Below are positions 3,987 to 60,943 of a DNA stretch of 64,000 nt, in pieces. The stretch comes from Gordius sp. MW1. Its lineage: Eukaryota; Nematomorpha; Gordioida; Gordea; Gordiidae. The notes under the pieces were generated by a model, which was given only the letters and a program-made list of their open reading frames with translations, did not search any database and was not told the origin of the DNA. The stretch covers positions 22,555,245 to 22,619,244 of the forward strand of contig OZ038528.1 of the NCBI GenBank assembly GCA_964036665.1, in the 5' to 3' direction. The position numbers were made by a program, and so were the translations under genes. Each line of letters begins with the position of its first letter. Position 1 is the first letter of the stretch.

Positions 3987-4049
3987 AAATTTTTAAATTT
4001 TTTTTTAAAAATCAGGCATTTAAATTTGTTGTCTAATACAAAAATTTAT

Positions 4050-6946
4050 AATTGACATGTTTAATGTCAGATTAATATAACTTCTTCATTATCAAACATT
4101 TGGCCCCAGAGTCGTGGGGTTTGTTCTGATGAGTTTCTTCCATCTTGATCGGTCAAGTGCAATGTCTTGATGAATCTTCTTAGTTTTTATAAATGTGTCC
4201 ACTTACCCTTTCTACGTGACACGAGGTCGCCCTCTCCATCTCTTGTCCGAACCTACATGTCCAATACTTTTCAATTAGCATTAATCGTCTCTCTTCTTGT
4301 TGTATGCCTAGAACACCTTAGATTTTCGTTATCATGGTTAAATACCCCTTTTCATCATAAGAAAGTCATTTGGGATATAGCGAGCTTAGTATACCCAAAG
4401 CTCCAACGTATCATTTTCATCTCCGTGACTTGTAATAGCTTTTCTTCCGTGGTGATATTTAAGTTTCACTATCATAGAGTGGCGCCGGTCTTACGATGGA
4501 TTTGTAAGCTTCCCTCTTCAACCATTTTGGCATTTTCTTGTGTCACATTACACAGATTTACTTCGCCATTTAAGCCATCCATCCGGGCATTGACTTCTGT
4601 TAGGCAACTTCCCTCTTGATGTAACATCGAGCCGAGGTAAGTAAACCTGTCTACTTTTGAATACTTTAGATGATCATCTAGAGATAAGATGCCTGTAACG
4701 TTCATCTCCATGTATATCGTTTATCAATCGTTGACCACTAAACCATAACCTACTAAGGGCTTTGATCACTTTTCGGCTTCCTCGAATGCTTTCTTTTTTG
4801 TCTCTTCACATAGTACTATATCATTGGCATAAAGCATACACCATGGCGATGGCTTTTGAATGTATCTCGTTATCGTTTCCATAATAATAATTAATAAAAA
4901 GGGACTTAGAGCAGATGTTTGATGTAACCCAATTTTAATCCGAAAATGTTTAGAGTCTTTAACTGTTGTTGTATTGTCACGCATGAATATGAGGCTTCAT
5001 AAATATTCTGCATAAGCCGTATATATGGTCAGGGATGTTTTTTCATGAACCGCCATATTAAATCGCTAGGGGACCGTGTCATAAGCTTTCTCCAAGTCGA
5101 CAAAGACCTATGTGGTTTACTAATCTTTTCATCATAATTATCCATCACTTATCTTAGTGCGAAGATTGGGTCGATTTTGGATTTGCCGACCACAAATCCG
5201 GGCCACCTCGTTTTTCAGCCTTTTTACTAAGATTCTTTCTATAGGCTAGGAGTGGCAAATCAGCTTGATACCTCTTTAATGGCCAAAGTCCTATGGGTCT
5301 CCTTTGCCTTTGAATAAGGGTATATTCGTACATGATCTCTCTCCATAGGAATTCGCTCTTTTCAATATCTTGTTAAGAGGTTCGTCATGGTCGTGACTCC
5401 TTCACGGCATCCGAGTATTCCATAGGTATTCCATCAGAGCCATTAGCTTTTGCTTTGTGCATCTTGTTCATTTGTGTCCTAACTCCTCCTGAAAGAGTTC
5501 TACCATACTTTGGCTCAATATCGAGATGGAAATCTTCGTCATTTGCAATATTCATAAGTTTCGCGAAATACTCTTTCCATCTTTCTATCACTTCCTTCGT
5601 CTTGAATAAGGTTTGTTCCTTCTCGTTTTAGACTATTTTAAATAATCCGACATCGCAACTTTTTCTCCCATATCTTGACCAATTTGTACATGAGCCTTTA
5701 GTCCTCTTTATGGTCTAATCTGTTTGCCATCTCGTTGTACGCGGCATTATTCGCTATTGCAACGGATTATTACACGGCTCTCTTTGAAACCGTCGACTTT
5801 TTTGAATTATGCTACTGTTCATTCGATTGAATTTCTAACCGAAGGATCCCACGACCATAGTTCCCTATTCATAGCTTGGCCTCCTTTGGTCTGCCCTAGA
5901 ACACGAATCGCTGTTTCCTTTATGTCCTTGGATAGCGTCTCCCAATCGTAGTCTAGGTCCCTTTGCAAACCCAAGAGTGATGAGCCTTTTTGATAATATT
6001 TTTCGCTGTCGACGTATCCTTTAGCCTTTCATGAATTCGAGGTTCACAAATCTTTCTTCTTTCAGAAAAAACTCTTCTGTCAAGATCCATAACAAGGGGA
6101 CAATGTTGCCTGGCGATTTCCTTCCCTAGGTATTACTTTGCAATTCTTGATACCCCATATTTCCATTCGCCGTTTGAGCAGATAATCAATTTGACTAAAA
6201 TGCTTCTCACTTCTATAAGTCACAATATGATCTTTGCGTTTTTAAAAATAGGTGTTAACGATGGCCATATCGTATGCTTGTGATACTTGGTTGGCCTTTC
6301 TTCCTGTCCAATTCCTTGTATTTCCTTTTCCAATAAATCGAAGAATATGTCTGTTTCTGATTCCACATACCCATTTGGAAAGCATACGCGCCCATAACTC
6401 TTTGGAAGCCCCCTTGAACTGCAATCTTAATCCACATTAGCCTATTTAAACAACGCTTGACTTCTACCACCTCATCCTTAAACGATTCGCTCAGAACGAT
6501 ACCGACCCCGTTTCGATGATTTGGGGGCCCATTGTAGAATATTTTGTATGTTTCTCCTAACTCCCGCGCTTTGGTTCCTTTCCACCTTGTCTCTTGTAGG
6601 CAGGCGATGTGTACCTTACATCTTTTTAGCATTTGTGCGACCTCGCTGCTCTTTGCCGTCAACGTTCCCACATACCAGCAAGATTAGCATTCTTTCCACC
6701 ACTGATTTCCTTAACCGCCTTCGTTGTGAGTCCGGCAATAACCCTTGTATTTCACATTGCATGCGAAAGGTATGCAGTGCGTGTAGTTTGTGGAAGACGC
6801 CCTAGCTTTCTCTTGTAAAATTTTATTTGATACCATACCATCATAATTTTGGAGTTGGTTATTATAGCCGATTTACGACCTGTCGCCACCCCCTCTTTTT
6901 GCACACTGACTTGGCTAAAAAGTGATAAAATAATACGCAAATACAA
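4050..6946 (-). mobile_element. RTE-clade LINE, degraded, copy A
   Basis: Minus-strand non-LTR retrotransposon. Upstream N-terminal region and apurinic-type endonuclease at about 6946-6250 (ACLQETRWKG, then NGVGIVLSESFKDEV). Linker at about 5590-5385 (RWKEYFAKLMN, MHKAKANGSDGIPMEY). Reverse transcriptase at about 5250-4770 with GLHQTSALSPFL and a degenerate catalytic box YANDIVLCEE, where the family has YADDIV. C-terminal part at about 4711-4472 (DRFTYLGSMLHQEGS). RTE elements encode one polyprotein of about 1000 residues; here it is broken into many frames, so the copy is dead. The same element occurs at 30370-33710 and, as a 5-prime fragment, at 16541-17276. Confidence 0.9.
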
Positions 6947-7641
6947 AATACACTAATAAATATCATTAGGCCCGAATTACCCGCGAGCCTGCCCGAAATT
7001 CTTAATTACTACAGTTGCCAGGTAAGACGACCCGAGGGCTGTATAATAAGCATGATTTATAGATTCCATGTAAAATCGATCATAAAAACGCCCTTTTTGG
7101 TCGACCTCCTCAGATTTTTTCGAATATTAACTGAGAGTTATAGCTCATTTAGACCACTAGTTTTGGAGTCGTGTGGGTGTTATAAGGTCAAAAATTAATT
7201 TTGCACGACATCGGTTTATGACGCTAAAATTAATATTTTGGAATCATTCACTTTTTATACATAATATTATGTTCTAAAGACAGATAATATCTGTTTCAAA
7301 AATTATCATATTAATTAATGAAAGCTGGAGACCGTTTGAATAATGTTTTTACCACTTATAAAACAATTTAAATTAAAATGGGGGCCACCATTATAAAATG
7401 GTAAAAAATCAAATTATTTAATTTATTACTATTGGCGCAAAATAACCACAAATTTTTTTTCTTTATTATAATAATAATACTAAATGTGCAATGAATTAGC
7501 ATTACTACTCCAATCCATCCTGTACATCCCCCCCCCCCCCCGATTCCCCATAGCTTTATAATCTTGGAAGGCAATTTAAAAAGTACATTGTAATAATTTT
7601 AATTTAATAATCAACTTAAAGGTACGATAAGACAAAGGGTA
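6947..7641. other. Spacer shared with copy B, no gene seen
   Basis: Non-coding AT-rich sequence alignable with 33711-34313, including a poly-C run at about 7530-7543 that is also present in B. The base just before the hAT insertion belongs to the target duplication AAAGGGTA (7634-7641). Confidence 0.6.
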
Positions 7642-10621: not shown

Positions 10622-11197
10622 AAAGAGGTTAATTTGAATAATCATTTCAAGGTGATGTTTAAATTGCACTTTAAATTAACATACACTCTTGTCTATTCCG
10701 TATTAATATATACAATTAATCCCATTAACTAATATTTAAAGAAACTTTAATTGGCTATTTGCATCTTAATTGCTTCAAGTTAACTCTAAATTAGTTTGAT
10801 ATAACATTTTGTGTTAGCCCAAATTTATTAATCTGTAACCTGTCATATGAGGTGTGGCATTTATAAATAAAACTGTTAAACAATTAAAATCCTATATTTT
10901 ATCATTTTTAAATAAATCCAAGCTTCTAATTAAATTTTCTCGTAGTTTACATGCGTGCAAAAAGATCGGAAATTAATTGACGGCAATATAAAAGAATTCT
11001 CTATTTGATATGTTTATTTATTTAACAACCTTCATCCTATATTATTTTATGAAAAGCTTTAGTAACATATAAAATTGCCTAATAAACACACCTCTATATT
11101 TCACTTTTTCTTCGAATTTCAGCGCATGCCCTAAAAGCTATCCCTTATACAACGATTATACAAATATTTTTTACAAATTTGAAACATATATACTATA

Positions 11198-11429
11198 ATG
11201 CCTTTCTTAGTTATAATCGGATATTTTATGTGCTCCTTTCTTCAACAAATGATAGTAGCAGGTAATAAATCGTTTTATTCACATATCTTGATCATATATA
11301 TATGAAATAGATAACGCTGATTTTAAAATCATTAAAGACGGACTTTATGTGTTTGATTATCGCCCTACTTACTATTTTGAATACCAAAATACCCATGAAT
11401 CTGGCAATTTTACAGTATACAGGAATTAA
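11198..11429 (+). CDS. Small secreted peptide gene, copy A (signal exon + exon 2a)
   Basis: Two exons, 11198-11261 and 11311-11429, joined across a 49-bp GT-AG intron, encode 60 residues. Exon 1 gives a hydrophobic signal peptide (MPFLVIIGYFMCSFLQQ, ending ..MIVA) and stops in phase 1 (GCA G). Exon 2a opens with DNADFKIIKD and ends NFTVYRN followed by TAA; the mature part is about 39 residues, tyrosine- and phenylalanine-rich, with no cysteine. The splice boundaries are kept in copies B and C. Between A and C the mature part is strongly diverged and 7 codons longer in C, while exon 1 and the flanks stay above 90% identical by eye. The intron length matches those of CZIB at 29.2 kb. No family is recognised. 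The start was chosen because it begins the hydrophobic stretch in all three copies. No transcript evidence is available. Confidence 0.6.
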
Positions 11430-11469
11430 TTATATATTGTATATTTATTCCATTATTCTGTATTTCTTT

Positions 11470-11585
11470 GTATAAAATTGGTGGATTTGGATTGATAAAG
11501 TAGGTAGAGGGAAATCGAACGCGTATTTCGGGTAAATATAGCCTATCATCAGGAAAAAAAGTGAAGATGACCACCGATTTTATAC
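11470..11585 (-). ncRNA. Hammerhead-ribozyme-like hairpin, Penelope type, copy A
   Basis: On the minus strand the order is outer stem arm (GTATAAAATCGGTGG), CCTGATGA, short stem II (GGCTATA..ACC), CGAAA (core 11526-11553), then the complementary outer arm (CCACCAATTTTATAC). CTGATGA, stem II and GAAA are the fixed parts of the hammerhead core, and Penelope-like retroelements are known to carry minimal hammerheads in their terminal repeats. Stem III is very short and not convincing here. Found at the same place in copies B and C, between exons 2a and 2b, so it was probably captured from a Penelope-like element before the copies split. Confidence 0.45.
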
Positions 11586-11844
11586 AGCGAAATACAAGAA
11601 TTGAATTTTATCACATAATATATTTTTGCCATTTTCGATACTTTGCTACACATATTATTTAATTTTTTTTTGAATAGGGAAAAACTCTTCAATTCAAGGT
11701 TTTTTTCAGTGATTCCATGACATACATAACAGTTTATAAAGATGCCACTAAAACCGTTAAAATTATTACTTTCTGTTTTTATCGAGGTAACGGAAGTTAC
11801 CTTAAAAATTTTTAAAATTATTTTTCAAATCCTCCGTGACATAG

Positions 11845-12005
11845 GAAAAGCAGAGAATATTCAAGGATTAAATGTATCACAGCGCTATGTTAACGTTGGG
11901 TGCCAATCATGCTCTCATACTCATCATATCATTGGGATCCTACCTATAAATAAACCATCTTCCTACAACTGCACCGGAACTCAATTCGCAAGTAATTTTC
12001 TATAA
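11845..12005 (+). CDS. Alternative terminal exon 2b of peptide locus A
   Basis: Begins after GTGACATAG and is open in phase 1. Joined to the signal exon it would give G-KAENIQGLN.., then VNVGCQSC and YNCTGTQFASNFL before TAA, a 74-residue precursor with three cysteines. Copy C has the equivalent exon (22148-22290), shorter by 18 bp, with VKVGCKSC and YNCTEPQF. The cysteine spacing pattern GC-x-SC ... YNC is kept while most other residues change. An AATAAA follows at 12038-12043. A continuous frame from 11742 (MPLKPLKLLLSVFIE..) also reads into this exon in A only. It carries a GT donor-like site kept in all copies, but that donor is in the wrong phase for this exon. Confidence 0.5.
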
Positions 12006-12124: not shown

Positions 12125-12195
12125 GGCGGCAAATAGCTTTTTCTTTAAAAATTAAAGATGCTGGGTATATAATATTATATTATAAAATGAAATAA
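12125..12195 (+). CDS. Candidate alternative terminal exon 2c, copy A
   Basis: Starts after CTGTTTTAG and is open in phase 1: G-RQIAFSLKIKDAGYIILYYK.. then TAA, 23 residues after splicing to the signal exon. Copy C (22394-22464) has exactly the same length and stop position but differs at about ten residues (LQMPFSLRIKHSAHIILLAK). Copy B (36170-36240) equals A except at one residue. Small size leaves room for chance. Confidence 0.4.
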
Positions 12196-12428: not shown

Positions 12429-12723
12429 TATGCATTGTATTCAACTAAATGAAAAATAATATCCTCCTATACGTGAGAGTGTTTTAAATAGAAATAAGTC
12501 TATACTTTAAAAACAAATTTGCGGCGCTTCTTATAGGTTGATATCTTTTATTCAATTTCTAACAATTTTATTTTTATAATATTGTCAGCGCCATATTTCA
12601 GTTTTTCGTCACAATTACATATTTAATATGCAAATAGATGTTAAATAAAAATCCAATTCAATTTACCTATCAATTTTTATAACCACTATTTGTTCATGTA
12701 TTTATTTCGATTTTTTTATATAG

Positions 12724-12932
12724 GAAAAGTAAAAAGACAAAGGTTTGAAAAATTATTGAAGGCGAAATTGCGCAATTTTTTATAAATTAGTTTTAATCTT
12801 CAAAATGATTTTATTTTATATCCAATTACACAATTAATTTCATGTAACTATTTCAATTTTTTTTATACAGGAAAAGTCAAAGGACAAAAGGGTAAAAAAA
12901 TTATTGAACTCGCAATTTTTAAATCAGTTTAA
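12724..12932 (+). CDS. Two candidate cationic micro-exons 2e/2f, copy A
   Basis: Two related units. Unit 2e (12724-12785) follows CGATTTTTTTATATAG and reads G-KVKRQRFEKLLKAKLRNFL then stop. Unit 2f (12871-12932) follows TTTTTTTTATACAG and reads G-KVKGQKGKKIIELAIFKSV then stop. Both are exactly 20 residues, begin GKVK in phase 1, are strongly basic and could form amphipathic helices. The polypyrimidine-AG context looks like true 3-prime splice sites. These units are the seed of the large array in copy B (36720-39290) and have two equivalents in C (near 22962 and 23109), of which only the second keeps a frame of similar length. Confidence 0.38.
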
Positions 12933-13199
12933 AATAATCAAAATGATAGTATTTTGTATCGAATTACACAATTAATTGTAATTTTTTATATTGCTTACAT
13001 AAAGACATAAATAAATTTCTATTACAAAATCTTTAAATCATTGATCTTATAAATTAAATTCAGCAACGAATTAAAATCTATGTTAATATGAAAGGGAAAT
13101 TTAGATAGTTGCAAAAAAGTGACATTTTGAATTCAATATTGACGTGAAATATCTTAAAACAAAAGCTTAAACTCACCTATTAAATTAATGGTAATATAT

Positions 13200-21473: not shown

Positions 21474-21721
21474 ATGCCTTTCTTAGTTATAATCGGATAT
21501 TTTATGTTTTCGTTTCTTCAACAAATCATAGTAGCAGGTAATAAATTGTTTTATTCACTTTTGATTATATATGTTAAATAGATAACGCTTATTTTAACAA
21601 AATTGGAGGCGGAAAATTTGTGTTAGAAATTCGCCGGACTCTCTATTTCGAATACGAAAGTTATAATGCAAAGAACCATTCTTATCTTGCAAAGGGCCGT
21701 TTTACAGTATACAGGAATTAA
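21474..21721 (+). CDS. Small secreted peptide gene, copy C (signal exon + exon 2a)
   Basis: Exons 21474-21537 and 21582-21721 across a 44-bp GT-AG intron encode 67 residues. The signal peptide differs from A at two residues only (MPFLVIIGYFMFSFLQQ, then IIVA). The mature part starts DNAYFNKIGGGKF and ends GRFTVYRN then TAA. It shares the first three and last six residues with A, while the middle is rewritten and 7 codons longer. The length change is a multiple of three although nearby non-coding indels are not. It may be joined alternatively to exons 2b and 2c in this copy. No family is recognised. Confidence 0.6.
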
Positions 21722-21761
21722 ATTTATATTGTATATTCAATCCATTATTCTGCATTTCTTT

Positions 21762-21877
21762 GTATAAAATCGGTGGGTTTAAATTGATAAAGTAGGTAGA
21801 AGGAAATGGACGGCGATATTTCGGGCAATTATAGCCAATCATCAGGAAAAAAGTGAAGATGACCACCGATTTTATAC
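21762..21877 (-). ncRNA. Hammerhead-like hairpin, copy C
   Basis: Best-kept copy: on the minus strand, outer arm GTATAAAATCGGTGG, CCTGATGA, stem II GGC/GCC, CGAAA (core 21819-21846), outer arm CCACCGATTTTATAC. In copy B (core 35569-35598) the GAAA box reads TAAA, so that copy should be inactive if the motif is real. Confidence 0.45.
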
Positions 21878-22147
21878 AGCGAAATACAAGAATTAAAATT
21901 ATTTTATCACATAATATATTTTTGCCATTTTTGATACTTTGCTACACATATTATTTAATTTTTTTGAATAGGGAGAAACTCTTAAATTCAACGCTCATTA
22001 CAAAAATTCCATCACATTCATCAATGTTTATGAACATGACAATAAAACCGTTAAAATTAATTCTATCTGTTTTTATCGAGGTAAGAGAAGTTTTTAGATA
22101 GTTACCTTAACATTTTTAAAATTATTTTAAAATCCACCGTGACATAG

Positions 22148-22290
22148 GAAAAGCAAAGTATATTCAAGGATTAGACGGACTCCCACACAAGCGCAATGTT
22201 AAAGTTGGGTGTAAATCGTGCCTTTTGGACAGCCATATAAATAAATACAACTGCACCGAACCTCAATTTGCCGGTAGTTTTAATTTTTAA
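22148..22290 (+). CDS. Alternative terminal exon 2b, copy C
   Basis: After GTGACATAG the phase-1 frame reads G-KAKYIQGLDGLPHKR.., VKVGCKSC, YNCTEPQFAGSFNF and TAA (47 residues with the split codon). In A the exon is 18 bp longer. Three cysteines are kept. The upstream frame that is open in A is closed in C, so a spliced origin is favoured here. Confidence 0.5.
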
Positions 22291-22393
22291 AACAATTCTT
22301 ATTTCCAATAAACATTGAAGATATTTGAATGATTTAGTTGGCAGATATTTAATAATATATGTGAAGGGAATTAATATTAATATGCTATTTTAG

Positions 22394-22464
22394 GGTTACA
22401 AATGCCTTTTTCTTTAAGGATTAAACATTCTGCACATATAATATTGCTTGCGAAACTGAAGTAG
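22394..22464 (+). CDS. Candidate alternative terminal exon 2c, copy C
   Basis: After GCTATTTTAG: G-LQMPFSLRIKHSAHIILLAK.. then TAG. Same length as A and B with about ten amino-acid differences from A; the stop codon is TAG here and TAA in A, at the same place. Confidence 0.4.
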
Positions 22465-23485
22465 ATAAATTAAAATTTTTGAAATATTAGATAACTCGTC
22501 ATTTAGCTAAAATAAATTAGTTAAATGTTGGTGGAATTTTTGGTATTTTTGAAATTCCAATGTCATTAATTTAAGCGCTCGTATATATAGCAACAAGCAA
22601 CTAGAGTGGAATTTTGATCGTTTTTTACTCTTTGATATTCCTAGAGGTTGCCTTTCCTGCTTGTTTGGCCTACATGCCTAATAAGAAATTTGGCATGTAA
22701 ATATTATACTAAATGAAAAATAATAACCTCCTATATGTGAGTAGTGTTTTAAATAGAAATAAGTCTATATACTATAAAAACAAATTTGCGGCGCTTTATT
22801 TAGGTTGATATCTTTTATTCAATTGCTAACAATTTTATTTTTATAATATTGTCAGCGCCATATTTCAGTTTTTTGTCACAATTACATATTTTAATATGCA
22901 AATAGATGTTAAATAAAAATCCAATTTAGTTTACCTATTATTTCGATTTTTTTATATAGGAGAAGTCAAAGGACAAAAGGTTTGAAGAATTATTGAACCG
23001 CGAAATTGCTAAATTTTTTTAAATTAGTTTACAATAATAAAAATGATAGTATTTTGTATCGAATTATACAATTAATTTCATGTATTTATTTCGATTTTCT
23101 TATCTAGGAAAAGTCAAAGGACAAAGGTTTGAATTGAAGGACAAAACTGTACAAATTTTTTAAATTAGTTTAAAATAATTAAAATGATGTATTGTAATTT
23201 TTTATATTGCTTACATAAAGACATAAATAAATTTCTATTACAAAATCTTTAAATCATTGGTCTTATAAATTAAATTCAGCAACGAATCAAAATCTATGTT
23301 AGTATGAAAGGGACATTTAGATAATTCCAAAAAAGTGACACTTTGATTTAAATTGAATATTGACGTGAAATATCAACAAAAGTTTAAACTCTTTTATAAA
23401 CGCAACTTCTCGTTTTGAATCCTTTATTTTAATAAGTTAAATTGTATGATTGGGTTATACAATATAAGTCAATAAGGAATCAGAT

Positions 23486-29921: not shown

Positions 29922-30330
29922 ATGTTTCCATTGAGGTGTGCATGCAAAATGTTGGACTATATTTTTTTAAATTTGCACTTTTTATTATATCCCTGCACAC
30001 TAATTAGAAAAGCGGTAACATATCATAGCTTTTGAAAAGGACCGCTATTTTTTCTCCCCACTTGACATGTAGCTTACTCCTCCGGTTACTTTATACCTGT
30101 TCCATAACATTGCAATTAACCTCGCATATACTTAAAATTTGACATTTATCCTTCAAATTTTCTTAATTTTTTTAATTAAAGCTTGAATTGTTATGTTTAA
30201 TCTCAGAAAACTTAGAGTAGTTTTTGTAATAAGAAAATTTACTATTTAATAACAAAAAAGATTAAAATAGTATGCTTGATTAATTTTTGTCAATTTAACT
30301 AAAGAAATTTACAGAAAGAATTATTAAAAA
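29922..30330. other. Upstream region of CZIB
   Basis: Contains the presumed promoter and 5-prime UTR of the minus-strand CZIB gene; no clear TATA element or upstream exon identified. Segmental copy B begins near 30330. Confidence 0.35.
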
Positions 30331-30369
30331 TGAGGCATATAAAGTTGTTGTATCAAATATTTAAAGTTG

Positions 30370-33300
30370 ATATGTTTAATGTCAGATTAATATAACTTCT
30401 TCTCCTTGATCAAGCATTTTCCCAGAGTCGTGGGGTTTGTTTTGATGAGCTTCTTCCAACGTGATTAGTTAAGTGCCATGTCTTAATGAATCTTCTTAGT
30501 TTTTATAAATTTTACCACTTACCTTTTCTACGTGGCCCTCGGTCGCCCTATTCCTCTCCTGCCCGGTACTTCCATCTTTTCGATTTTCATTGTTTGTCTC
30601 TCTTTAGTATATGCCCATACCAACTAAAATTTTTGTTATCATGGTTAAATAAATACCCATTTTCGCTATGAGAAAGTCATTTGTGATATAGCGAGCTTGG
30701 CTTGTACAATAGCTTTACTTCCGTGGTGATGTTTAAGTTTCACTTTCATAGAGTAGCGCCGGTCTTACAATGGATAGCTTTCCTCTTCAATCATATTGAC
30801 ATTTTCTTGTCGCTCCTTACACGGATTTACTTCGCCATTTAAGTCATCCTTTTTGAATCTGAGCATCGACTTCTGTTGCGCAACTTCCCTCTCGATGTAA
30901 CTTCGAGCCGAGGTAAGTAAACCTGTCTACTTTTGGGTACTTTAGATAACTATCTAACTCTATGTCTGTAACGTTCATCTCCATGTATACCGTTTTTTAA
31001 TCGTTGGCCTTGAAACCATATCCGGCTAAGCGCCTTGATCACTTTTCGGCTTCCTCGAATACTTTCTTATATCTCCGCATATTACTATATCATTGGCATA
31101 AAGCATACACCAGGCGATGGCTTTTGAATGTCTCTCGTCCATTATTATAATGAATAAAAAGGGACTCAGAGCAAATTCTTGATGTAATCCAATTTCACCT
31201 CGAAAATGTTTAGAGTCCCCAATTGTTGTCCTAATGCACTAATATGAGGCTTCATAAATATTCTTCATGAGCCGTATATATGGTCAAATGTTTTATTTTT
31301 AAGCACCACCATATTATTTCGCGAGTGACCGTGTCATAAGCTTTCTCCAAGTCGATAAAGACCATATGTGGTTCACTTCTCTTTTCACCATAATTATCCA
31401 TCACATGTCTTAGTGCGAAGATTGGTTCGATTGCGGATTTGCTGACCATAAATCCTAATAAGTTAGCCTACCTCGTTTTTCAGCCTTGTTACTAAGATCC
31501 TTTCTATAAGCTTCATAGAGTGTCAAATTAGCTTGATAACTCTGCAATAGCCAAACTCCTTAGGGTCTCTTTTGACTTTGAATAAGGGTATAATCGTATT
31601 TGATCTCTGTCCATTGATTAGGAATCCTCTCTTACCAATATCATGTTAAAGAGGTTTGTCATGGTCGTGACTCCTTCCCGGCATCCGAGCAATGCCATTC
31701 CATAGGTATTCCATCTGAGCCATTAGCTTTTGCTTTGTGCATTTTGTTCATTTGTGTCCTAACCTCTCCTGAAAGAGTTGGGCCATACTTATGTCTGGCT
31801 TAATATTGAGTAGGAAATCTTCATCATTGGCAATATTACCTTTCTATCACTTCCTTCGTTTAGAATATGGTTTGACCCTTCTCGTTTATATTCGGTCATC
31901 GCAACTTTTTCTCCTATCTTGACCAATTTGAACATAAGCCTGTCGTTCTCTTTACGGTCCAGTCTGTTTGTTATATCGTTGAACGCGGCATTATTCGGAT
32001 TTCTGGCTCTCTTTGCCTCATTATACCCTAGATAATCCTCCGACTTTTATGATTAATGCCACTGTCCATATATATTTTATTTCGATAAAATTTCTAACCG
32101 AAGGATCCCACCACCATAGTTCCCTATTCATAGCTTTGGCTCCTTGTCCTTTGGCCTATTCTAGAACTCGAATCGCTGTTTCCGTCACGTCCTTAGTTCG
32201 CGCCTCCCAATCGTCGTCCGGGTCTCTTTGCAACTTCCTTGCACCCAAGAGTGAAGAGGCTTTTTGGAAATATTTATCGTCATCGCCATACGTATAGTAT
32301 CGAATTCGAGGTTCATAAACCCTTCTTCTTTCAGGAAATACTTTTCCTTCATGATCCATCACATGTGGATGATGTTGCCTAGCGATTTTTTCTCCCGTAT
32401 TACTTTGCAATCTTTTATACCCCATACGTCCTTTCACCTTATGAGCTGATACTCAATTTGACTAAAATGTTTCCCATCTCTATAAATCTCAATATGATCT
32501 TCGCGTATTTAAAATATGTGTTAACGATCGATATGTCAAATGCATGAGATACTTGAAAAAGATTCCCCCCCCCTTTTGTTCTTCTACCGTGCCCATAGCC
32601 TCCATGATTTCGTTCATACCCAAGGCAATCTTTCTCTACATGGGCGTTGAAATCCGCCTCAAAAGCACATATGAAGGGGGCGAGAAGGAGGAGAAAGAGA
32701 GGAGAGTAGGTGGAGGGAGAGAGATTTGTGTTAGTAAACATCGCGTACGCAGTATGAACTCTAATGTACTCCGTTTACCAGACATCGTGGGACGAATTTT
32801 GATAAGGAGAAGGGGTTTACGCAAACGCGTATAAATTTGAGTATAAGGGTGATATAAAAAAAAGAATGGACCTATAGATGAAACTTTAATATACATGAAT
32901 ATATTACTATTTTTAACTATATATTAAAAATGCCTAGCAATATAGCCTCAAAAAGGCTTAAAAAGGGCATTTTTGACACTTTCAACCTCGTATATCTATA
33001 AAACTGGTGATTGTAGACAAAAATTAAAAACATATTTTTTTAACGCAAAATTCTCTATCTGAACTATTGGTCGGATACGGGATGTTTTTTTTGTAGACCT
33101 GTGTAATTAGCCTTTCTTCCTGTCCTTTTCCACGGAATCGAAGAATATGTCTATCTCTAACCCAATTTGGGGAGCATACTCGCACATAACGGTTAGGAGT
33201 CCCCTTCTGCAATCTTCACCCATATTAACCTGTCGGGACAACGCTTGAATTCCACCACCTTGTCCTTGAACGATTCGCTTAGAACAATACCGACCCCATT

Positions 33301-33710
33301 TCTCCTATTTGGTGTACCACAGTAGATACTTCTCCTAACTCCCGAGCTTAAATTCTATTCCACCTCGTCTCTTGTGGGCAGGCGATATATACCTTTCTTG
33401 TTTTTAGCTTGTGCGACCTCGATGCTCTTTCTCATCAACGTTCCCACATTCCAGCACGTTATTCGCATTCTTTCCACATCTAATTTTCTCAACCGCCATA
33501 GTCGGGTAATAACATAGTGTATTTTTCACATTGCATGGGTGGGTATGCAGTGCGTGTCGTTTGTGGAGGACGTCCTAGCTTTCTGTTGTACAATTTTGTT
33601 TGAAATTCTATCATGATTTTAAGTTGGTTTATATAGTCGATTTCAGACCTGACGCCAACCTCCCTCTTTTTGCACATGGACTTGGCTAATAAAATAATAC
33701 ACAAAAACAA
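30370..33710 (-). mobile_element. RTE-clade LINE, degraded, copy B
   Basis: Second copy of the LINE at 4050-6946, brought by the segmental duplication. The reverse transcriptase is better preserved in places: MVFIDLEKAYDTVTREIIWW (about 31380-31320) is the RTE block containing the first catalytic aspartate. Interrupted by about 430 bp of foreign sequence near 32660-33090 and broken by many frame changes. Dead copy. Confidence 0.88.
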
Positions 33711-34305
33711 AACAATACACTATATCGGCCCGAATTACCCGCAGCCTGCCTAAAATTCTAAATTACGACAGTTGCTTAATACGATCTGGCCCGTGGGCGA
33801 TGACATGATTTAGATAGCGTTCTTCCATGTCAAATCGACCATAAAAAATCCCTTTCTAATTCATTGTTTTTGAATCATTCACTCTTTAATCAAAAAATTA
33901 TGTTCTAAGGACAGATCAAATCTGTTTCACAAAATTTTAATTAATCAACAGCTGAAGACCGTTTAAAAATTGAAACCAATGTTTTTTACTACTTGCAAAT
34001 AAATTTAAATCAAAATGGAATTTGGGTGACCATTATAAAATGGTAAAAATGAAAATTATGTATTTTATTACTAATGGCGCCAAATGACCACAAAAAATCT
34101 ATCATTATTAGTTAAGCAATCTTATATTATAAGTCTCTATAATAGTAATAAAACTAAATGTGCAATGAAATATCATACTATTCCAATCTTTCTCACGCAC
34201 CCCCCCCCCCCTATTCCCCATAGATTTATAATCTTAGAAAGTAGTTTATAAAGTAGATTGTAATAATTTTGATTACTAATAATCTACCTGAAGGTACGGT
34301 AAGAC

Positions 34306-34313
34306 AAAGGGTA
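34306..34313. other. Empty target site of the hAT element
   Basis: AAAGGGTA occurs once here in the duplication copy, with flanks GGTACGGTAAGAC and AAATTGTTTAGTATGGC that match both sides of the 7642-9259 insertion in copy A. Confidence 0.9.
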
Positions 34314-35240: not shown

Positions 35241-35472
35241 ATGCCTTTCTTAGTTATAATCGGATAATTTATGTGCTCGTTTCTTCAACAAATCATAGTA
35301 GCAGGTAATAAATTGTTATATTCACATATCTTGATCATATATATATTAAATAGATAACGCTGATTTTAAAATCATTAAAGACGGACTTTATGTGTTTGAT
35401 TATCGTCCTACTTATTATTTTGAATACCAAAATACCCATGAATCTGGCAATTTTACAGTATACAGGAATTAA
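35241..35472 (+). pseudogene. Secreted peptide gene, copy B, signal exon broken
   Basis: Same layout as copy A: exon 1 35241-35304, 49-bp intron, exon 2a 35354-35472. Exon 2a encodes exactly the same mature peptide as A. Exon 1 has TAA at codon 9 (MPFLVIIG then stop), so a normal precursor cannot be made unless translation starts at the ATG two codons further on. Either a pseudogene or, if the base is a sequencing error, an intact duplicate of A. Confidence 0.6.
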
Positions 35473-35889
35473 TTATATATTGTATATTCAATCCATTATT
35501 CTGTATTTCTTTGTATAAAATCGGTGGATTTGGATTGATAAAGTAGGTAGAGGGAAATGAAACGCGATATTTAGGGCAATTATAGCCTATCATCAGGAAA
35601 AAAAGTGAAAATGACCACCGATTTTATACAACGAAATACAAGAATTAAATTTTATCACATAATATATTTTTGCCATTTTCGATACTTTGCTACACATATT
35701 ATTTAATTTTTTTGAATAGGGAAAAAATCTTCAATTCAAGGTTTTTTTCAATAATTCCATGACATACATAACAGTTTATAAAGATGCCACTAAAACCGTT
35801 GAATTTAATTCTTTCTGTGAGGTAATGGAAGATTTTAAATAGTTACCTTAAAACTTTTAAAATTATTTTTCAAATCCTCCGTGACATGG

Positions 35890-36240
35890 GAGAAGCAGAG
35901 AATATTCACGGCTTAAATGTATCACAGGGCTATGTTAACGTTGGGTGCCAATCATGCCCTCATACTCATCATATCATTGGGATCCTACCTATAAATAAAC
36001 CATCTTCCTACAACTGCATCGGAACTCATTTCGCAAGTAATTTTCTATAATTTTTTATTTTCAATTAACAATTCTTATTTGCAATAAACATTCAAGATAT
36101 TTGAATGATTTTGTTGGCAGATATTCAATAATATATGTGAAGGGAATTAATATTAATATGCTGTTTTAGGGCGGCAAATGGCTTTTTCTTTAAAAATTAA
36201 AGATGCTGGGTATATAATATTATATTATAAAATGAAATAA
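35890..36240 (+). pseudogene. Exons 2b and 2c of peptide-locus copy B
   Basis: Exon 2b (35890-36050) stays open and near identical to A (VNVGCQSC, YNCIGTHFASNFL) but its splice acceptor reads CATGG in place of CATAG. Exon 2c (36170-36240) keeps acceptor, length and stop and matches A except for one residue. Together with the stop in the signal exon this suggests relaxed constraint in B. Confidence 0.45.
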
Positions 36241-36719: not shown

Positions 36720-39290
36720 GATTTTCTTATATAGGAAAAGAAGGACAAAAGGTTTGAAAAATTATTGAACGGCGAAATTGCTCAATTTTTTTAAATTAGT
36801 TTACAATAATCAAAATGATAGTATTTTGTATCGAATTATACGATTAATTTCATGTATTTATTTCGATTTTCTTATATAGGAAAAGTCAAATGACGAAGGT
36901 TTGAAAAATTATTGAATGGGGAAATTGTGCAATTTTTTAAAATAAGTTTACAATAATTTTTAGAATGATTGTATTTTGTATCGAATTATACAATTAATTT
37001 CATGTATTTATTTCGATTTTCTTATATAGGAAAAGTCAAAGGGCAAAGGTTTGAAAAATTATTGAATGGGGAAATTGTGCAATTTTTTAAAATAAACAAT
37101 AATTTTTAGAATGATTGTATTTTATATCGAATTATACAATTAATTTCATGTATTTATTTCGAGTTTCTTATATAGAAGTCAAAGGCAAAGGTTTGAAAAA
37201 TTATTGAATGGGAAATTGTGCAATTTTTTAAAATAAACAATAATTTTTAGAATGATCGTATTTTGTATCGAATTATACAATTAATTTCATGTATTTATTT
37301 CGATTTTCTTATATAAGAAAAGTCAAATGACGAAGGTTTGAAAAATTATTGAATGGGGAAATTGTGCAATTTTTTAAAATAAGTTTACAATAATTTTTAG
37401 AATGATTGTATTTTGTATCGAATTATACAATTAATTTCATGTATTTATTTCGATTTTCTTATATAGGAAAAGTCAAAGGACAAAGGTTTGAAAAATTATT
37501 GAATGGGGAAATTGTGCAATTTTTTAAAATAAACAATAATTTTTAGAATGATTGTATTTTATATCGAATTATACAATTAATTTCATGTATTTATTTCGAG
37601 TTTCTTATATAGAAGTCAAAGGCAAAGGTTTGAAAAATTATTGAATGGGAAATTGTGCAATTTTTTAAAATAAACAATAATTTTTAGAATGATCGTATTT
37701 TGTATCGAATTATACAATTAATTTCATGTATTTATTTCGATTTTCTTATATAGGAAAAGTCAAATGACGAAGGTTTGAAAAATTATTGAATGGGGAAATT
37801 GTGCAATTTTTTAAAATAAGTTTACAATAATTTTTAGAATGATTGTATTTTGTATCGAATTATACAATTAATTTCATGTATTTATTTCGATTTTCTTATA
37901 TAGGAAAAGTCAAAGGACAAAGGTTTGAAAAATTATTGAATGGGGAAATTGTGCAATTTTTTAAAATAAACAATAATTTTTAGAATGATTGTATTTTATA
38001 TCGAATTATACAATTAATTTCATGTATTTATTTCGAGTTTCTTATATAGAAGTCAAAGGCAAAGGTTTGAAAAATTATTGAATGGGAAATTGTGCAATTT
38101 TTTAAAATAAACAATAATTTTTAGAATGATCGTATTTTGTATCGAATTATACAATTAATTTCATGTATTTATTTCGATTTTCTTATATAAGAAAAGTCAA
38201 ATGACGAAGGTTTGAAAAATTATTGAATGGGGAAATTGTGCAATTTTTTAAAATAAGTTTACAATAATTTTTAGAATGATTGTATTTTGTATCGAATTAT
38301 ACAATTAATTTCATGTATTTATTTCGATTTTCTTATATAGGAAAAGTCAAAGGACAAAGGTTTGAAAAATTATTGAATGGGGAAATTGTGCAATTTTTTA
38401 AAATAAACAATAATTTTTAGAATGATTGTATTTTATATCGAATTATACAATTAATTTCATGTATTTATTTCGAGTTTCTTATATAGAAGTCAAAGGCAAA
38501 GGTTTGAAAAATTATTGAATGGGAAATTGTGCAATTTTTTAAAATAAACAATAATTTTTAGAATGATCGTATTTTGTATCGAATTATACAATTAATTTCA
38601 TGTATTTATTTCGATTTTCTTATATAGGAAAAGTCAAATGACGAAGGTTTGAAAAATTATTGAATGGGGAAATTGTGCAATTTTTTAAAATAAGTTTACA
38701 ATAATTTTTAGAATGATTGTATTTTGTATCGAATTATACAATTAATTTCATGTATTTATTTCGATTTTCTTATATAGGAAAAGTCAAAGGACAAAGGTTT
38801 GAAAAATTATTGAATGGGGAAATTGTGCAATTTTTTAAAATAAACAATAATTTTTAGAATGATTGTATTTTATATCGAATTATACAATTAATTTCATGTA
38901 TTTATTTCGAGTTTCTTATATAGAAGTCAAAGGCAAAGGTTTGAAAAATTATTGAATGGGAAATTGTGCAATTTTTTAAAATAAACAATAATTTTTAGAA
39001 TGATCGTATTTTGTATCGAATTATACAATTAATTTCATGTATTTATTTCGATTTTCTTATATAAGAAAAGTCAAATGACGAAGGTTTGAAAAATTATTGA
39101 ATGGGGAAATTGTGCAATTTTTTAAAATAAGTTTACAATAATTTTTAGAATGATTGTATTTTGTATCGAATTATGCAATTAATTTCATGATTTTCTTATA
39201 TGGGAAAAGTCAAAGGACAAAGGTTTGAAAAATCATTGAAAGGCAAAACTGTACAAATTTTTTAAATTAGTTTAAAATAATTAAAATGAT
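36720..39290 (+). repeat. Array of about 18 monomers (146 bp) with 437-bp higher-order period
   Basis: Each monomer contains TTTCGATTTTCTTATATAG (or a variant), the exon-like GAAAAGTCAAAGGACAAAGG, then TTTGAAAAATTATTGAATGG and an AT-rich spacer. Monomers fall into three types in fixed order X (TCAAATGACG), Y (TCAAAGGACA) and Z (AGAAGTCAAAGGCAAAGG), period about 437 bp. The X acceptor alternates TATAGG and TATAAG, giving a six-monomer super-period near 875 bp. Only Y keeps a usable phase-1 frame (G-KVKGQRFEKLLNGEIVQFF..); X has an early stop and Z is shifted. Copies A and C have two monomers each. Repeats are nearly identical, so expansion is recent or an assembly effect. Confidence 0.9.
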
Positions 39291-40332
39291 TGTATTTTGT
39301 ATCGAATTACCCAATTAATTGTAATTTTTTATATTGCTTACATAAAGACATAAATAAATTTCTATTACAAAATCTTTAAATCATTGGTCTTATAAATTAA
39401 ATTCAGCAACGAATTAAAATCTATGTTAATATGAAAGGGACATTTAGATAGTTGCAAAAAAGTGACATTTCGAATTCAATATTGACGTGAATATCTTAAA
39501 ACAAAAGCTTAAACTCACCTAAATTGATGATTGGCCAAATCAAATTTAGTTGGATAATAATTATTACTAAAATCACATTTCAACATATTTATGGATTAAA
39601 TTAATTAGATGGTAATATATTTCTTGTATAATTATTGAATTGTGCAAACATAAAATTATGACATTTATTTAACAAAAAAGATTAATTTTTTAGTCACTTA
39701 GTATTCGGTATGTTGCGGTAATTTCTGTGGTCTGCAAATGCCAATTTAAAGTCAATTTTCAAAACATCTTTATTAGATTTTATATCATGTCAGATTCATT
39801 CGTTCCCAATTCTTGGTAATATATAAATATAACTTTGCTCTGTTTTATTATGACTTGATAAGAAGTAGCTTTAAAATGAGATTTCCGATATTATTTTATT
39901 TTATACATAAAAAACCGTTCAAAAATAATTTCAAACACAAAATTTCCCGGATTCGATAAATGTTTATTCTATATAAAATAATCGCACAAAAGCAAAGTTA
40001 GCCAATCAAATAAACCTGTATTACAAGTCTGTATATTGTTCTTAAGACGTAGAAATAAAATTTCTCCTTAATGAGCTTTACTGTCCTATTTTTTGGTGTA
40101 TTAAAATTGACGAGTTTTTTGTACATACTTTCTAACATATGCATTTAAATTGGAAATGGCCGAAAGCCTCTCGACGAATTGAATTTCCTGGGGGTAAAAA
40201 ATGTCCCCCACTTTGAAAATGTCGCCCAGAATAAAAACCTATCAATCATATGGTCAATTTTCAATTTTAGAATAGGGTTGAAATGTAGGTTGCTTTATAA
40301 AAAATTTATGATTATTATTATAGGTTTATGCA

Positions 40333-48228: not shown

Positions 48229-48864
48229 ATATATATGGCCAAGATTTTTTAGGGTTGTGGCAATAAAATATTTTAATAAAAACTTTTTTACTATTTGTAT
48301 TATTTTTTAAAATGTCAAAGATTTCTCGTCAAAAATCCCCGTTCCACTTTGCGCCCTTACAATTCATTTATTCAAAAACTTATTAGACCATGAAAATTTT
48401 CTATATTGTTTCAACTACATTACTTTGTTTTATTTATGAATAAATTTTATTTATTTTATGCCCTACAAACATGAGGGTCTGAGACGGTTTTTGGGCAACC
48501 GTCCGACACCAAGATAACCCAATCAAAATCTTTCTAAGTTAACCCAACCAAAATGAAGGTAAAATTTTAAAATAACTGAATTACAAACAAGACATAAAAA
48601 CTTAAATTCTATATTTCCAATAAATAATAATTATTTAAAGTTTTTTAAATAACAATTAATAATAAGTAATTTTTTAGTTTAAACATTATAATTTTTTAAT
48701 TATACATCTATTAGCATCAAAGTTTAAATTTAAATGTAAACTTTGTTATTAATCACGAACTAAAATAAATTTATAATTGAATGTTATATAAATATGTGAA
48801 TCACTTCCGCATCATATATATACACCCTTTTTATACAATATTTTTGCATAATTCATTGTATATA
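48229..48864. repeat. Duplicated flank (partner 54318-54610) and spacer
   Basis: GGCCAAGATTTTTTAGGG, CCCCGTTCCAC, CCCTTACAATTCATTTA and TTTATTTATGAATAAATTT recur at 54326-54560. From about 48570 to 48864 the DNA is AT-rich with nothing seen. Confidence 0.7.
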
Positions 48865-49577
48865 ATGATATACTATACCATTTCCAAACAGAAGAAAATA
48901 GTCTTAATTAATAATAAACATTATCTATTAATAAAAGATACTAATAACAAGAAATATTTTCGGTGTAGAAACAAACTTTGCAAGAGCAAAGCCACTATGT
49001 CAGAATCAACATTTACAATAACGACACCTCACTGTGCAGGTAAACCTAATTATTGCATATATATATTTTAAACAAGGCTGCACACAATCATCAACATCAA
49101 TCTTAACTCTATCTGAAGGATCATCACCTCTACCTTCCAATACTCCAACCAATTCAAATAATGTTCTCTTAATAAGTAAATCATATCTGCAAAATTTTAT
49201 TCTTTTGTAGGATCATCATCTCAACCTATGTGCAATACTTCACACAATTTGATTAATTTTAGGCCATTAGGTATCTTAATAAATTTTTTATCTTATTGTA
49301 TTTGTAGGATCTTCACGTCCACCTACTTCCAATACTCCAATCAAATTCAAATAATGTTCGCTTAATAAGTAGATCATATCTTCATAATTTTTTTCTTTTG
49401 TAGGATCATCATCTCAACCTATGCGCAATACTTCAAACAACAATTTAAATATTATGTCTTTCTTAAGTAAAATTTGTTTTATATATGTTAATTAATTTAA
49501 AGGACCAATAAATGTTCTAACTGAATCAAAATTCAATAATGTCTCCACATCAAATATAGAAACTGAACTACATGCTG
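48865..49577 (+). CDS. FLYWCH zinc-finger exon followed by phase 1-1 micro-exons
   Basis: Exon 1 (ATG 48865 or 48781, to 49039) encodes a FLYWCH-type finger: KIVLINNKHYLLI, NKKYFRCRNKLCKSKATM, ending TTPHC. It stops in phase 1 at CAG|GTAAAC. Small exon-like blocks follow, each after an AG and closed by GT: 49119-49175 (57 bp), 49211-49270 (60), 49308-49368 (61, frame-breaking), 49404-49466 (63) and 49503-49577 (75). All but the third are multiples of three in phase 1-1. The first four are diverged duplicates beginning GATC(A/T)TCA and give serine/proline-rich linkers (SSPLPSNTPTNSNN, SSSQPMCNTSHN). FLYWCH fingers are typical of the N-terminus of animal Mutator-like transposases, and catalytic remains on the same strand lie at 55.9-56.5 kb, so this is probably the front half of a split MULE. 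A host FLYWCH gene is the alternative. Confidence 0.5.
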
Positions 49578-56702: not shown

Positions 56703-57019
56703 ATTGGTTACCTTGGCAAATAAAATCTTAATATAGCAACGCGATCATTGGTTACCTATGCAAAAAACTTAACCTTTCTCTTTCAAATATTCACGCAATT
56801 TATTCATAAAAGTGAATACATTCAGGTAGTTGAAGGTCTTGTAATTCACCGTTTTTATAACCTCGCCAGATGTGTATATAAACGGGTTGCTTTAACTAAA
56901 ATACAATTCGTTCATTTCTTTCTATTATTTGGAAATAAAATGTTGTGTGCTTTCAATTGATTCCTTGTCTAATAAAATACTATATTTATTAACAGTTTAT
57001 AGGTATCCAAGCCGCAACA
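56703..57019 (+). repeat. 5-prime LTR
   Basis: Matches 60944-61262 almost throughout; ends AAGCCGCAACA. Contains TATATAAACGGG and AATAAA motifs. The first bases differ from the 3-prime LTR, so the exact left edge is uncertain by a few bases. Followed by TGGTGACCCC, a probable primer-binding site. Confidence 0.9.
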
Positions 57020-60000
57020 AAATGGTGACCCCAAGTCTAAAAATGGAAACACCACAAATGGATGATGACTCGAACGGGGATAATACGTTATACCACAAGC
57101 TCCCCGCGTTTAACACGTTAAACCCACGAATTTGGTTTATTCGGATTGAATCTCTGTTTAAAATTCTAAAAATTAAAAATGAATTTACAAAATTAGGTTA
57201 CCTCATAGAAAACCTTCCACAGGAAGTGACGGCCGAAATTCAAGACTTATTTGAAAACATACCGAACGAAGCCGCGTTTTCAAAAATGAAGGTAGCTATT
57301 ATCGAACGCACATCCCGAAGCGATATGCAACGTCTGCACGACCTACTGACAAACGTAGAACTTGGAGATCGATCCCCATCACAGCTACTACGTTATATGA
57401 GAACCTTTTTAGGATCACATTCAATGGACGATACCATCCTTATACAACTGTGGATGGACAAATTGCCAGCAACAATGACCGGCATACTAGTAATTTTCGC
57501 GCCGGATCAAACACCCACAAAATTGGCAGAAACAGCTGATAAAATAGCAGCCACGTACCACGTAAGTCCCATAATTAATTCATTAAACCCAGGTCTAAAT
57601 AAAGAATTGGAAGATCTAAAAGAGCTCGTAAAAAACCTTAGTGTTACAGTAGAAACACTAAAGAGGGATGTCAAAAAGTACGATCACGATCTTTTTCAAG
57701 ACATCGATCTAACTCACGTCACAAACGCGCAGCAAGGACAAACGAGCCTAACCTATGCTGGTATCACAATCGATTCCAAGACAAGGCCACAAAATGCATA
57801 AAACCTTGCACGTTCTACCAAAAAGATTCAAACTAATAGGCCGGCCAGCAAAAGCGACATCTGGCACCGGCCTTAAAAAAACAAGTCGCCTATTCTATTT
57901 AAGATAATTGTTCAACTATGAATTTTTTAATTGAAACTGGCGCAGAAATTAGCGTCATCCCGGCAACCAAACGCAAACGACTCAATTGGTCCAATATACA
58001 GCTTCAAGCTGCAAATGCAAGCGCCATAAAAACGTTTGGGCATAAATCGTTGACTTTAGACCTAGGCCTAAAAAGGCCATATCAATGGAGCTTTACAATA
58101 GCTGACGTTGAATTTCCAATATTAGGAGCGGACTTTCTAAGTAAATTTAACTTTACAATTAAGATTTCAAAGAAACAACTGATTAAAACCCAAATTACGC
58201 CGGCCAAACAGATCGCAGTAAACTCCCAATTGGCTGTAGGAAATCCCCCGGAATTCACTTGGTTAGTAAAAAAATTCCCCGCTGTGTTTAAAGCTACAGA
58301 ATATACGCCAATAGCAAAACATAATACCCAACACCATATAGAAACAAAAGGGCCGCCAGTATTTTCTAAACCCAAACGTTTTAATGCTGAAAAACTGAAG
58401 ATAGCCAAAGATGAATTCATGCACATGATGGATTTAGGCATCATCAGAACTTCAAATAGCAGCTGGGCTTCTCCTCTACACATGGCACCAAAAAAGAACA
58501 ATAAAGAGTGGAGACCATGCGGAGATTATGGGGCCCTCAATATCAAAACAATTCCCGATCGTTACCCTCTACCGCATGACTTTTCACTTTCCTTGTCAGG
58601 TAAAAAAATATTCACTAAACTGGATTTAGTTCGTGCTTTTCACCAAATCCCAATGGCGCCAGAATATATCCAACCGCCATCACAACCCCATTCGGTTTAT
58701 TCGAATTATTACGCATGCCCTTTGGTCTAAGAAATGCAGCACAAACGTTTCAAAGATTCATTGATCATGTTCTCAGGGGATTGGACCATACATTTACCTA
58801 TTTGGACGACATATTAATCGCCAGCTCTTTACTTGCACACAAAGTACACGTTGAACAAGTAATACAACGACTTTCCGATAACGGGATTAATGTCAATGTG
58901 CAAAAATGTAAATGGGGCGTAAAGGAAATTGAGTTCTTAGGACACATCGTAACGTCTCTAGGGTTAAAACCCATACCCGATAAAATAGACACCATTGACA
59001 AATTTCCAATCCCAACTTCAATGACACAATTGAGAAGATTTATCGGCATGATAAATTTTTACCGAAGGTTTATCCCTAAATGTGCAGAGCTCCTCAAACC
59101 ATTAACCGATTACCTCGACAATACCAAAAGACCTATTGGGTTAACACAGGAAGCTAAAGACGCATTTATTTAGGCAAAACAAGCCCTTAAACAAATAACT
59201 AGTCTATCTCATTTAGGCAAAAAAAACAAACTGTCGCACACTACTGATGCTTCCAACTTCGCAGTAGGAGGAAATTATACAACAACAAACATTAAACGGT
59301 GATATTCTACCACTTGCCTTCTATTCAAAAAAACTCTCACAAACGCAAACACGCCACAGTACCTTCAGCCGAGAACTATTGGCCATTTACCTTATAATAA
59401 AACATTACAGCCATGTTCTCGAAGGACGCAATTTCACCGTATATACCGACCACAAACCCTTAACTTATGCACTTAAGACAAAGATGGACAAATACTCTCC
59501 TCGAAAAATCCGTCAACTGGACTACCTCTCAATTCACAGCGGGCATCCAATACATCCGAGGTAGCACAAACATAGTGACTGATACCCTGTCCCGTACAGA
59601 CATCGACACAATCCAACTCCTTGCATCACAATCATTACTGGAATTCATATCTACGAGACAGAAGGTTGAAAATTACACAAATGACGAAACGAAATCTTTA
59701 ATATTGGAACAATTTCCAATACCTGATTCAAAACAAAAAATCATTTGTGATGTTTCTCAAACAACACCTCGACCTCTGGTACCTCCTACCTTACGACAAA
59801 CAGTTTTCAATCAATATCACTGATTATCACATCCCGGTATCCGTTACCCTGAAACTAATTGTGAAACGTTTTGTCTGGCCTAAAATGAACCATGACGTAC
59901 GAATATGGGCTCAACAATGTCTTAATTGTCAGGTCAGTAAAATAAATAAACTTGTTATTTCTACCCCAGGTACATTCAACCAACCTGATGCTCGATTCAG

Positions 60001-60943
60001 CCATGTCCACCTAAACATTGTTGGTCCGTTACCACCATCCAATGGGTATAACTACATTTTTACGGCCATAGACCGATACACCCGGGGGCCGATAGCAATC
60101 CCTATAAAAGATACTTCAGCCAAAACCGTGGCTGGTACCTTTTTAACACAATGGATAGCAAACTTCGGCGTAATAAGCACAATAACAACCGATAGAGGAT
60201 CGCAGTTTCGTTCAACACTATTCCGACAATTTTCCCAGCTACTCGGTTATCATTATATAACCACAACCGCCAATCACCCACAAGCTAATGGGCTGGTCGA
60301 ACGCTTCCATCGTCAGCTAAAGAGTTCGATAATGGCAAAAGACAACGCTAACAAATGGTCCGAATTACTCTCTTTGATATTAATAGGCATTAGAACGACG
60401 ATCAAAAAAGACCTAGCTTGTTCTAGTTCCGAACTAGTTTATGATACCACCTTACGCCTACCAGGCGATTTCATACAACATTCGTCACACGACACCAATG
60501 CAACCGAGTTCGTACAACGCCTTCGACACCATTTCGACAACGTACGTTTCTCACCATTACTTACATCAAACACCAAACAATAAATCCCCGCCGATTTGTT
60601 TTCTACACCTTAGATTTTTATCAGGACCGATAAAGTTCGAAAAAGCTTATCCCCACCATACGAAGGCCCCTTCAAAGTTATTGACAGACAAACCAAATAC
60701 TTTGTGGTAAACAGAAATGGGAAACATGATAATATTTCTATCGATCGGTTGAAACCAGCAATACCGAATCAGTCAACCCTATAGAACCACTCATAAAAGG
60801 TCCTACCATTTAAAACCAACCTTCCACCTCTAACACTACCACAAACCATACAATAACAAAAGCAGGACGAAAAGTTCATTGGCCAGTTAAATTAGCCGAA
60901 TACTTAAATTTTTAGCACTCCTTGCAAATAGGGGGGGGGGACT

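Follow-up and report, generated by a model that had tools for sequence, protein, structure and literature searches.

How the exons coding for the mature part of a predicted protein came to change about three times more than the introns and surroundings of the same genes, between two copies that both remain open, is the question raised by this locus. The window, i.e. the whole 64,000-nucleotide stretch of DNA that was analysed (C2:22555245-22619244 in an assembly of 211.8 Mb and 12 contigs), carries three tandem copies of the gene, which start at positions 11198, 21474 and 35241 and are termed here copy-11k, copy-21k and copy-35k. In the original prediction, the first two (its copies A and C, as matched by the numbers given) were compared by eye, and their conserved leader and hypervariable mature product were likened to the signature of venom and defence peptide genes. 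The answer preferred here, to which we give about an even chance, is that divergent selection acted on the tandem paralogs and that their exon blocks are older than the DNA surrounding them.

Gene structure and the search for relatives

Both copy-11k and copy-21k can be read on the forward strand as five predicted exons (E1 to E5) with GT-AG junctions and matching phases, joining into a 495-nt frame of 164 residues in each, with exon lengths of 64/104/109/147/71 and 64/125/109/126/71, respectively. The exons of copy-21k comprise E1 at 21474..21537, coding for the signal-peptide-like leader and ending in phase 1 at a gtaata donor; E2 at 21582..21706, coding for the N-terminal part of the mature protein and ending in phase 0 at an ACA/gtatac donor; E3 at 21972..22080, entered in phase 0 and left in phase 1; E4 at 22148..22273, which carries three of the four mature cysteines; and E5 at 22394..22464, which includes the stop TAG. 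Past the stop lies a presumed 3' UTR (22465..22570, forward strand), the right limit of which is approximate and was set by eye on the divergence profile. The corresponding exons of copy-11k lie at 11198..11261, 11311..11414, 11678..11786, 11845..11991 and, with the stop TAA, 12125..12195, all on the forward strand. At the local stop frequency, 132 codons would stay open by chance with a probability of about 3e-5 per copy. E3 (21972-22080), the single 495-nt frame and the lesions of the third copy had escaped the original prediction, whose exons 2a, 2b and 2c (E2, E4 and E5) suggested alternative terminal exons; this arrangement was rejected, as every piece is accounted for by one frame of five exons whose phases match. 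An in-frame TAA stands shortly past the E2 donor in all three copies, so that a short retained-intron form is possible.

The product, as predicted from the DNA, is a small basic protein with a hydrophobic leader followed by a mature part of 143 residues in both open copies (pI 9.3 and 9.7). The leader and its end point were read by eye, and the leader is a putative signal peptide; we infer that the gene is expressed and its product secreted. All four mature cysteines stand at aligned positions in the two open copies, a comparison of two sequences only. Copy-35k (35241..36240, forward strand) is close to copy-11k and is broken: exon 1 contains an in-frame stop, exon 3 has a 7-bp deletion, and the AG acceptor before exon 4 is lost.

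A genome-wide DNA search with the stretch that carried the original prediction returned 52 match rows. Of these, 49 fall exclusively within part of intron 2 and the others are the three copies; 40 of 331 candidates were scored, and the intron-2 rows hence number at least 49. With the copy-21k protein, 11 matches to the assembly were obtained at E up to 10, of which 10 fall in the three copies and the eleventh, on contig C8 (E = 2.56), is at chance level. No large multigene family was found by the protein search or among the DNA matches listed, which place three copies in the assembly, all of them in the window. Pfam gave no family for either of the two proteins, two protein-database searches gave no relative, orthologue included, and of two sequence searches of PDB one gave a single match, at E = 1.3, and the other, made with a profile, gave none; in none of these resources did anything fall below E = 1, toxin and antimicrobial families included. 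As neither a toxin nor a defence homologue was found, as the searches show three copies in the assembly and as the organism is apparently a hairworm, the label of venom or defence peptide was not upheld. The most apt description of the locus is a tandem gene pair of a hairworm, probably secreted and relative-less so far, with predicted exon islands of divergence.

The part of intron 2 that matches elsewhere is a MITE-like repeat with short terminal inverted repeats, recognised by eye, and lies, within approximate limits, at 21745..21897 (forward strand) in copy-21k, 11453-11605 in copy-11k and 35496-35648 in copy-35k. It is dispersed in the genome. The versions in the three gene copies differ from one another by 6-9% and from five copies elsewhere in the genome by 12-22%, and those five are 18-26% different among themselves. 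This pattern is explained most simply by one insertion before the duplications.

Further elements were observed in the window. A tandem array of units of about 146 bp occupies 36741-39376, 3' of copy-35k (16 register positions), and two to three such units each were seen by eye behind the open copies (12693-12996 and 22797-23196). By eye, many of these units start with a splice-acceptor-like stretch, and some retain a short open frame in phase with exon 4; they are possibly spare 3' exons and more likely a satellite. Of 46 open frames listed in the window, 10 were scanned and 6 matched Pfam; among the matches were integrase zinc-binding, endonuclease and hAT transposase domains above the cut-off and integrase core and FLYWCH domains below it. 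A Gypsy-like retroelement lies at 56896-60710, its first frame matching DUF7041 and its next frames resembling, by eye, protease, reverse transcriptase and integrase. The FLYWCH zinc-finger-like frame at 48781-49071, just under the cut-off, is perhaps derived from a DNA transposon. The stretches 4002-7641 and 30321-34313 are diverged copies of one another (69-77% identity), and in the former a minus-strand frame (6255-6683) matches an endonuclease/exonuclease/phosphatase domain and appears RTE-like by eye.

Distribution of divergence among the three copies

Between copy-11k and copy-21k, E1 differs at 4 of 64 bases, the very count given in the original prediction, and E2-E5 differ at 109 of 404 (27%), distributed as 32/104, 22/109, 34/120 and 21/71 over E2, E3, E4 and E5. 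Introns differ at 40 of 481 positions (8.3%; 7/44 in intron 1, 18/260 in intron 2, 9/57 in intron 3 and 6/120 in intron 4) and flanks at 50 of 551 (9.1%), so that flanks agree at 91% and introns at 92%, in line with the flank agreement above about 90% estimated by eye. The contrast between a conserved leader and a hypervariable mature part was accordingly confirmed. For E5, about ten changes in 23 residues had been noted; the strong divergence is real and the count is 12 of 23.

The length changes follow the coding frame. E2 is 21 bp longer in copy-21k (125 against 104), as had been stated, and E4 is shorter by 21 bp (126 against 147) and not by the 18 bp first reported, a difference composed of one 27-bp and one 6-bp change. 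All three exon length changes between the open copies are multiples of three, as claimed; in noncoding DNA this holds for 1 of 18 (Fisher p = 0.003; copy-11k vs copy-21k). A dN/dS near 1 with frame-breaking indels in further copies had been named as evidence against the proposed signature. This has been borne out in part: the mature dN/dS is about 1, as shown below, and frame-breaking damage does occur in copy-35k, so that the rule of in-frame indels holds between the open copies only.

The third copy allows the changes to be assigned to branches. Private changes were counted in gap-free three-way columns, 397 in E2-E5 and 1022 in noncoding DNA. Those private to copy-21k number 103/397 in E2-E5 against 59/1022 in noncoding DNA (p = 6e-24), those private to copy-11k 6/397 against 27/1022, and those private to copy-35k 11/397 against 26/1022 (p = 0.85). 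With 103 private changes in copy-21k against 6 and 11 in the others, the whole exon excess falls on the edge that separates copy-21k from copy-11k and copy-35k.

The rates in the broken copy bear directly on exon-targeted hypermutation, which, together with misalignment or assembly artefact, we regard as barely credible. Codons hit at all three positions do exceed the binomial expectation (10 vs 2.8), as such a process or artefact might produce. Copy-35k exons have nevertheless been changing at the noncoding rate, which argues against a higher mutation rate of the exons and led to the rejection of exon hypermutation; moreover, dN and dS stay high in 104 codons lying more than 5 codons from indels, and in-frame indels and open frames have been preserved.

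Within introns alone, differences show no significant concentration next to exons (p = 0.22-0.25); clustering is significant only for the copy-21k private changes with the 3' flank included (p = 0.003). An apparent conflict of topology between the 5' flank and the distal 3' flank (p = 0.005) was set aside, since it leans on the edge of homology (11120-11197 alone leaves 4 vs 1); the four-region test gave p = 0.06.

Silent and linked neutral sites

For the mature part, Nei-Gojobori estimates were dS 0.305 and dN 0.356, a ratio of 1.16 (bootstrap 0.74-1.96), and nonsynonymous divergence does not significantly exceed synonymous divergence by this method (p = 0.31); for the signal part the ratio is 0.24, on 4 changes. 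A pairwise maximum-likelihood (ML) codon model gave a dN/dS of 0.95 for the mature part and did not reject omega = 1 (2dlnL 0.03). When the rate of introns and flanks is taken as the yardstick, as the original prediction had proposed alongside dN/dS, the exons stand far above it, as expected; the mature dN/dS itself is about 1 and not clearly above. The ratio stays near 1 despite the excess of exons over introns because the silent sites of the same exons are raised too. The ML test, which takes the intron rate of 0.087 as known, rejects silent divergence equal to that value in three overlapping codon sets, with 2dlnL of 19.7, of 13.5 for codons more than 5 codons from indels, and of 8.3 without triple-hit codons. 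The locus shows how dN/dS alone can mislead.

A dN/dS of about 1 would also be expected if the exons were neutral parts of decaying genes and the introns and flanks were under unusual constraint. This account is very improbable, given that a transposon-derived repeat and the distal 3' flank, with much the same level of divergence, belong to the similar part, that copy-35k shows one rate in exons and noncoding DNA, and that all three exon indels keep the frame and both frames are open.

The rise in neutral divergence appears to extend beyond the codons. It was gauged against a background of noncoding DNA minus introns 1 and 3 and the past-stop stretch (55/828, 6.6%), a set which, like the limit of the past-stop stretch, was chosen after the profile had been seen. 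Against it, silent changes in codons for the same residue (9/49, p = 0.007), introns 1 and 3 pooled (16/101, p = 0.003) and the past-stop stretch of about 95 bp (19/93, p = 4e-5) are all raised, each being about 16-20% diverged. Pooled, these linked neutral sites differ at 44/243 (18.1%), about 2.7 times the background. Nonsynonymous sites (88/312, 28%) exceed the background (p = 5e-20) and the pooled linked neutral sites (p = 0.007), and do not significantly exceed the same-residue silent sites alone (p = 0.17).

The main rival of the preferred reading is plain positive selection, which would have acted on the mature protein once a young duplication had taken place, without gene conversion, the rise of silent and 3' sites being put down to noise, codons with multiple hits and 3' adaptation; we consider it a tentative possibility. 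The large excess of nonsynonymous over noncoding change suits it, and so do the fourfold sites, which are not raised between copy-11k and copy-21k (2/27, matching the background, or 4/36 under a laxer rule), the introns, which are low directly beside E2 and E4 (1/16 and 1/15 differ), and the private changes of copy-11k in the mature exons, which are nonsynonymous in 6 of 6 cases. The background set is likewise homogeneous (dispersion 0.88, p = 0.54). A single young duplication with selection on codons alone would account for the replacement and fourfold sites and for the low values of introns 2 and 4 beside E2 and E4, but not for the other silent sites or the past-stop stretch. Against it stand the pairwise dN/dS of about 1, the ML rejection of silent divergence at the intron rate in the three overlapping codon sets, the raised introns 1 and 3, and the finding that the exons of copy-11k have not been accelerated since its split from copy-35k (6/397 vs 27/1022 noncoding).

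Under the preferred reading of older exon blocks, selection would have favoured a difference between the mature proteins of the two paralogs and maintained it. The similarity of leader, promoter, long introns and distal flanks would then reflect a younger age or homogenisation through exchange between the tandem copies, and older "islands of divergence" would be formed by the exon blocks together with the short introns 1 and 3, the silent sites and the past-stop stretch. Selected islands kept apart as the rest was homogenised would explain the raised linked neutral sites, the divergence does peak over coding exons with low introns and flanks, and all noncoding DNA pooled is overdispersed (1.62, p = 0.008). 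Points against the islands are the homogeneous background, the fourfold sites at background level, the comparison of two open sequences and the want of a detected conversion tract: the longest identical noncoding run between copy-11k and copy-21k spans 57 columns (permutation p = 0.36), and a run test within the background set gave p = 0.68. The low introns beside E2 and E4 also suit selection at codon level without linkage, and the nonsignificant excess of nonsynonymous over synonymous change and the lack of clustering of intron differences near exons count against the islands too.

Replacement of a segment, whereby exon blocks of one copy were recombined in from a diverged allele or a lost paralog and then kept, would place the whole excess on one edge of the three-copy tree, raise silent and replacement sites together and cover E2-E5 past the stop with the promoter and E1 excluded, all of which is observed. 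We hold it to be improbable, as neither the DNA nor the protein search of the 211.8-Mb assembly turned up a donor at another site, and as the four exons are split by introns 2 and 4 of low divergence, for which several exchanges would be needed.

Comparison with known systems and the organism

Islands of the kind preferred here have precedents. In duplicates under gene conversion, divergence peaks over selected exons with low flanking introns, according to the accessible part of PMC3924837. Such duplicates, represented by exon 5 of the red/green opsins and by the Teshima-Innan model, share tandem paralogs, exon peaks and low flanking introns with the present pair. The pair differs from that case, as far as it is described there, in having four such exons and not one, no detected tract and no orthologues by which the duplication could be dated. 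For GOT1 of Tigriopus californicus, too, the accessible part of PMC3728101 describes linked paralogs with islands of divergence between them; that is, however, an enzyme gene that has known relatives and for which conversion events are predicted, and the islands of GOT1p1/p2 lie inside a single exon.

Conotoxin superfamilies combine a conserved signal peptide, and introns conserved within a superfamily, with a mature exon rich in point changes and trinucleotide indels (PMC3862624, accessible part). The hairworm pair shares the conserved signal, the conserved introns and the many changes in mature exons; it differs in phylum, in a 143-residue mature protein spread over four exons, in the three copies found and in that no sequence similarity was found. 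For the snake small serum protein genes PfSSP-1/2, the accessible part of PMC6609765 gives an intron divergence of 0.0649 beside a KA/KS of 1.739; an array, low introns and a broken copy are common to both loci, but the arrays are unrelated and the hairworm KA/KS is near 1.

The attribution to a hairworm comes from contig C12 (14,798 bp, A+T 65.7%), which is mitochondrial. A scan that required perfect inverted repeats with arms of 14 bp or more and loops below 80 yielded 552 raw hits, where one base shuffle yielded 0; 21 non-overlapping repeats with arms of 14-108 bp were listed. With frames read by eye, 13 of the 21 lie inside nad1, atp6, nad5, nad2 and nad6, and none of the 21 lies inside cox1, cox2 or cox3. 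According to the accessible part of PMC6649704, inverted repeats occur in nad1, atp6 and nad5 (in two places) of all four species of Nematomorpha studied, cox genes are without long palindromes, and the mitochondrial genome is of about 15 kb with an A+T content from about 65%. The palindromes in the coding frames of C12, matching those described there, make it very probable that the organism is a hairworm, and one of the freshwater group in which this feature is known. Mitochondrial cox1 also has many nuclear matches, on contigs C1, C3, C4, C5 and C8, among them a near full-length one on C8 and opposite-strand pairs on C4.

As a guess, the protein may be active extracellularly, in a contest that rewards changes of sequence, be it host-facing or reproductive. 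A stronger version, which we find rather doubtful, is that the two tandem forms are old alternatives, secreted toward the arthropod host or toward mates, whose message parts (E2-E5 and the past-stop stretch, with the promoter, leader and long introns excluded) have been kept apart far longer than the surrounding DNA; if true, one locus would hold two maintained molecular specificities. No hairworm gene of this type was found among the papers listed by a literature search on hairworms, secreted proteins, host manipulation and positive selection. To our knowledge, the question of which hairworm molecules meet the host is largely open, and a gene pair whose product is probably secreted, recognised solely from the way it has evolved, offers a concrete candidate for contact with the host.
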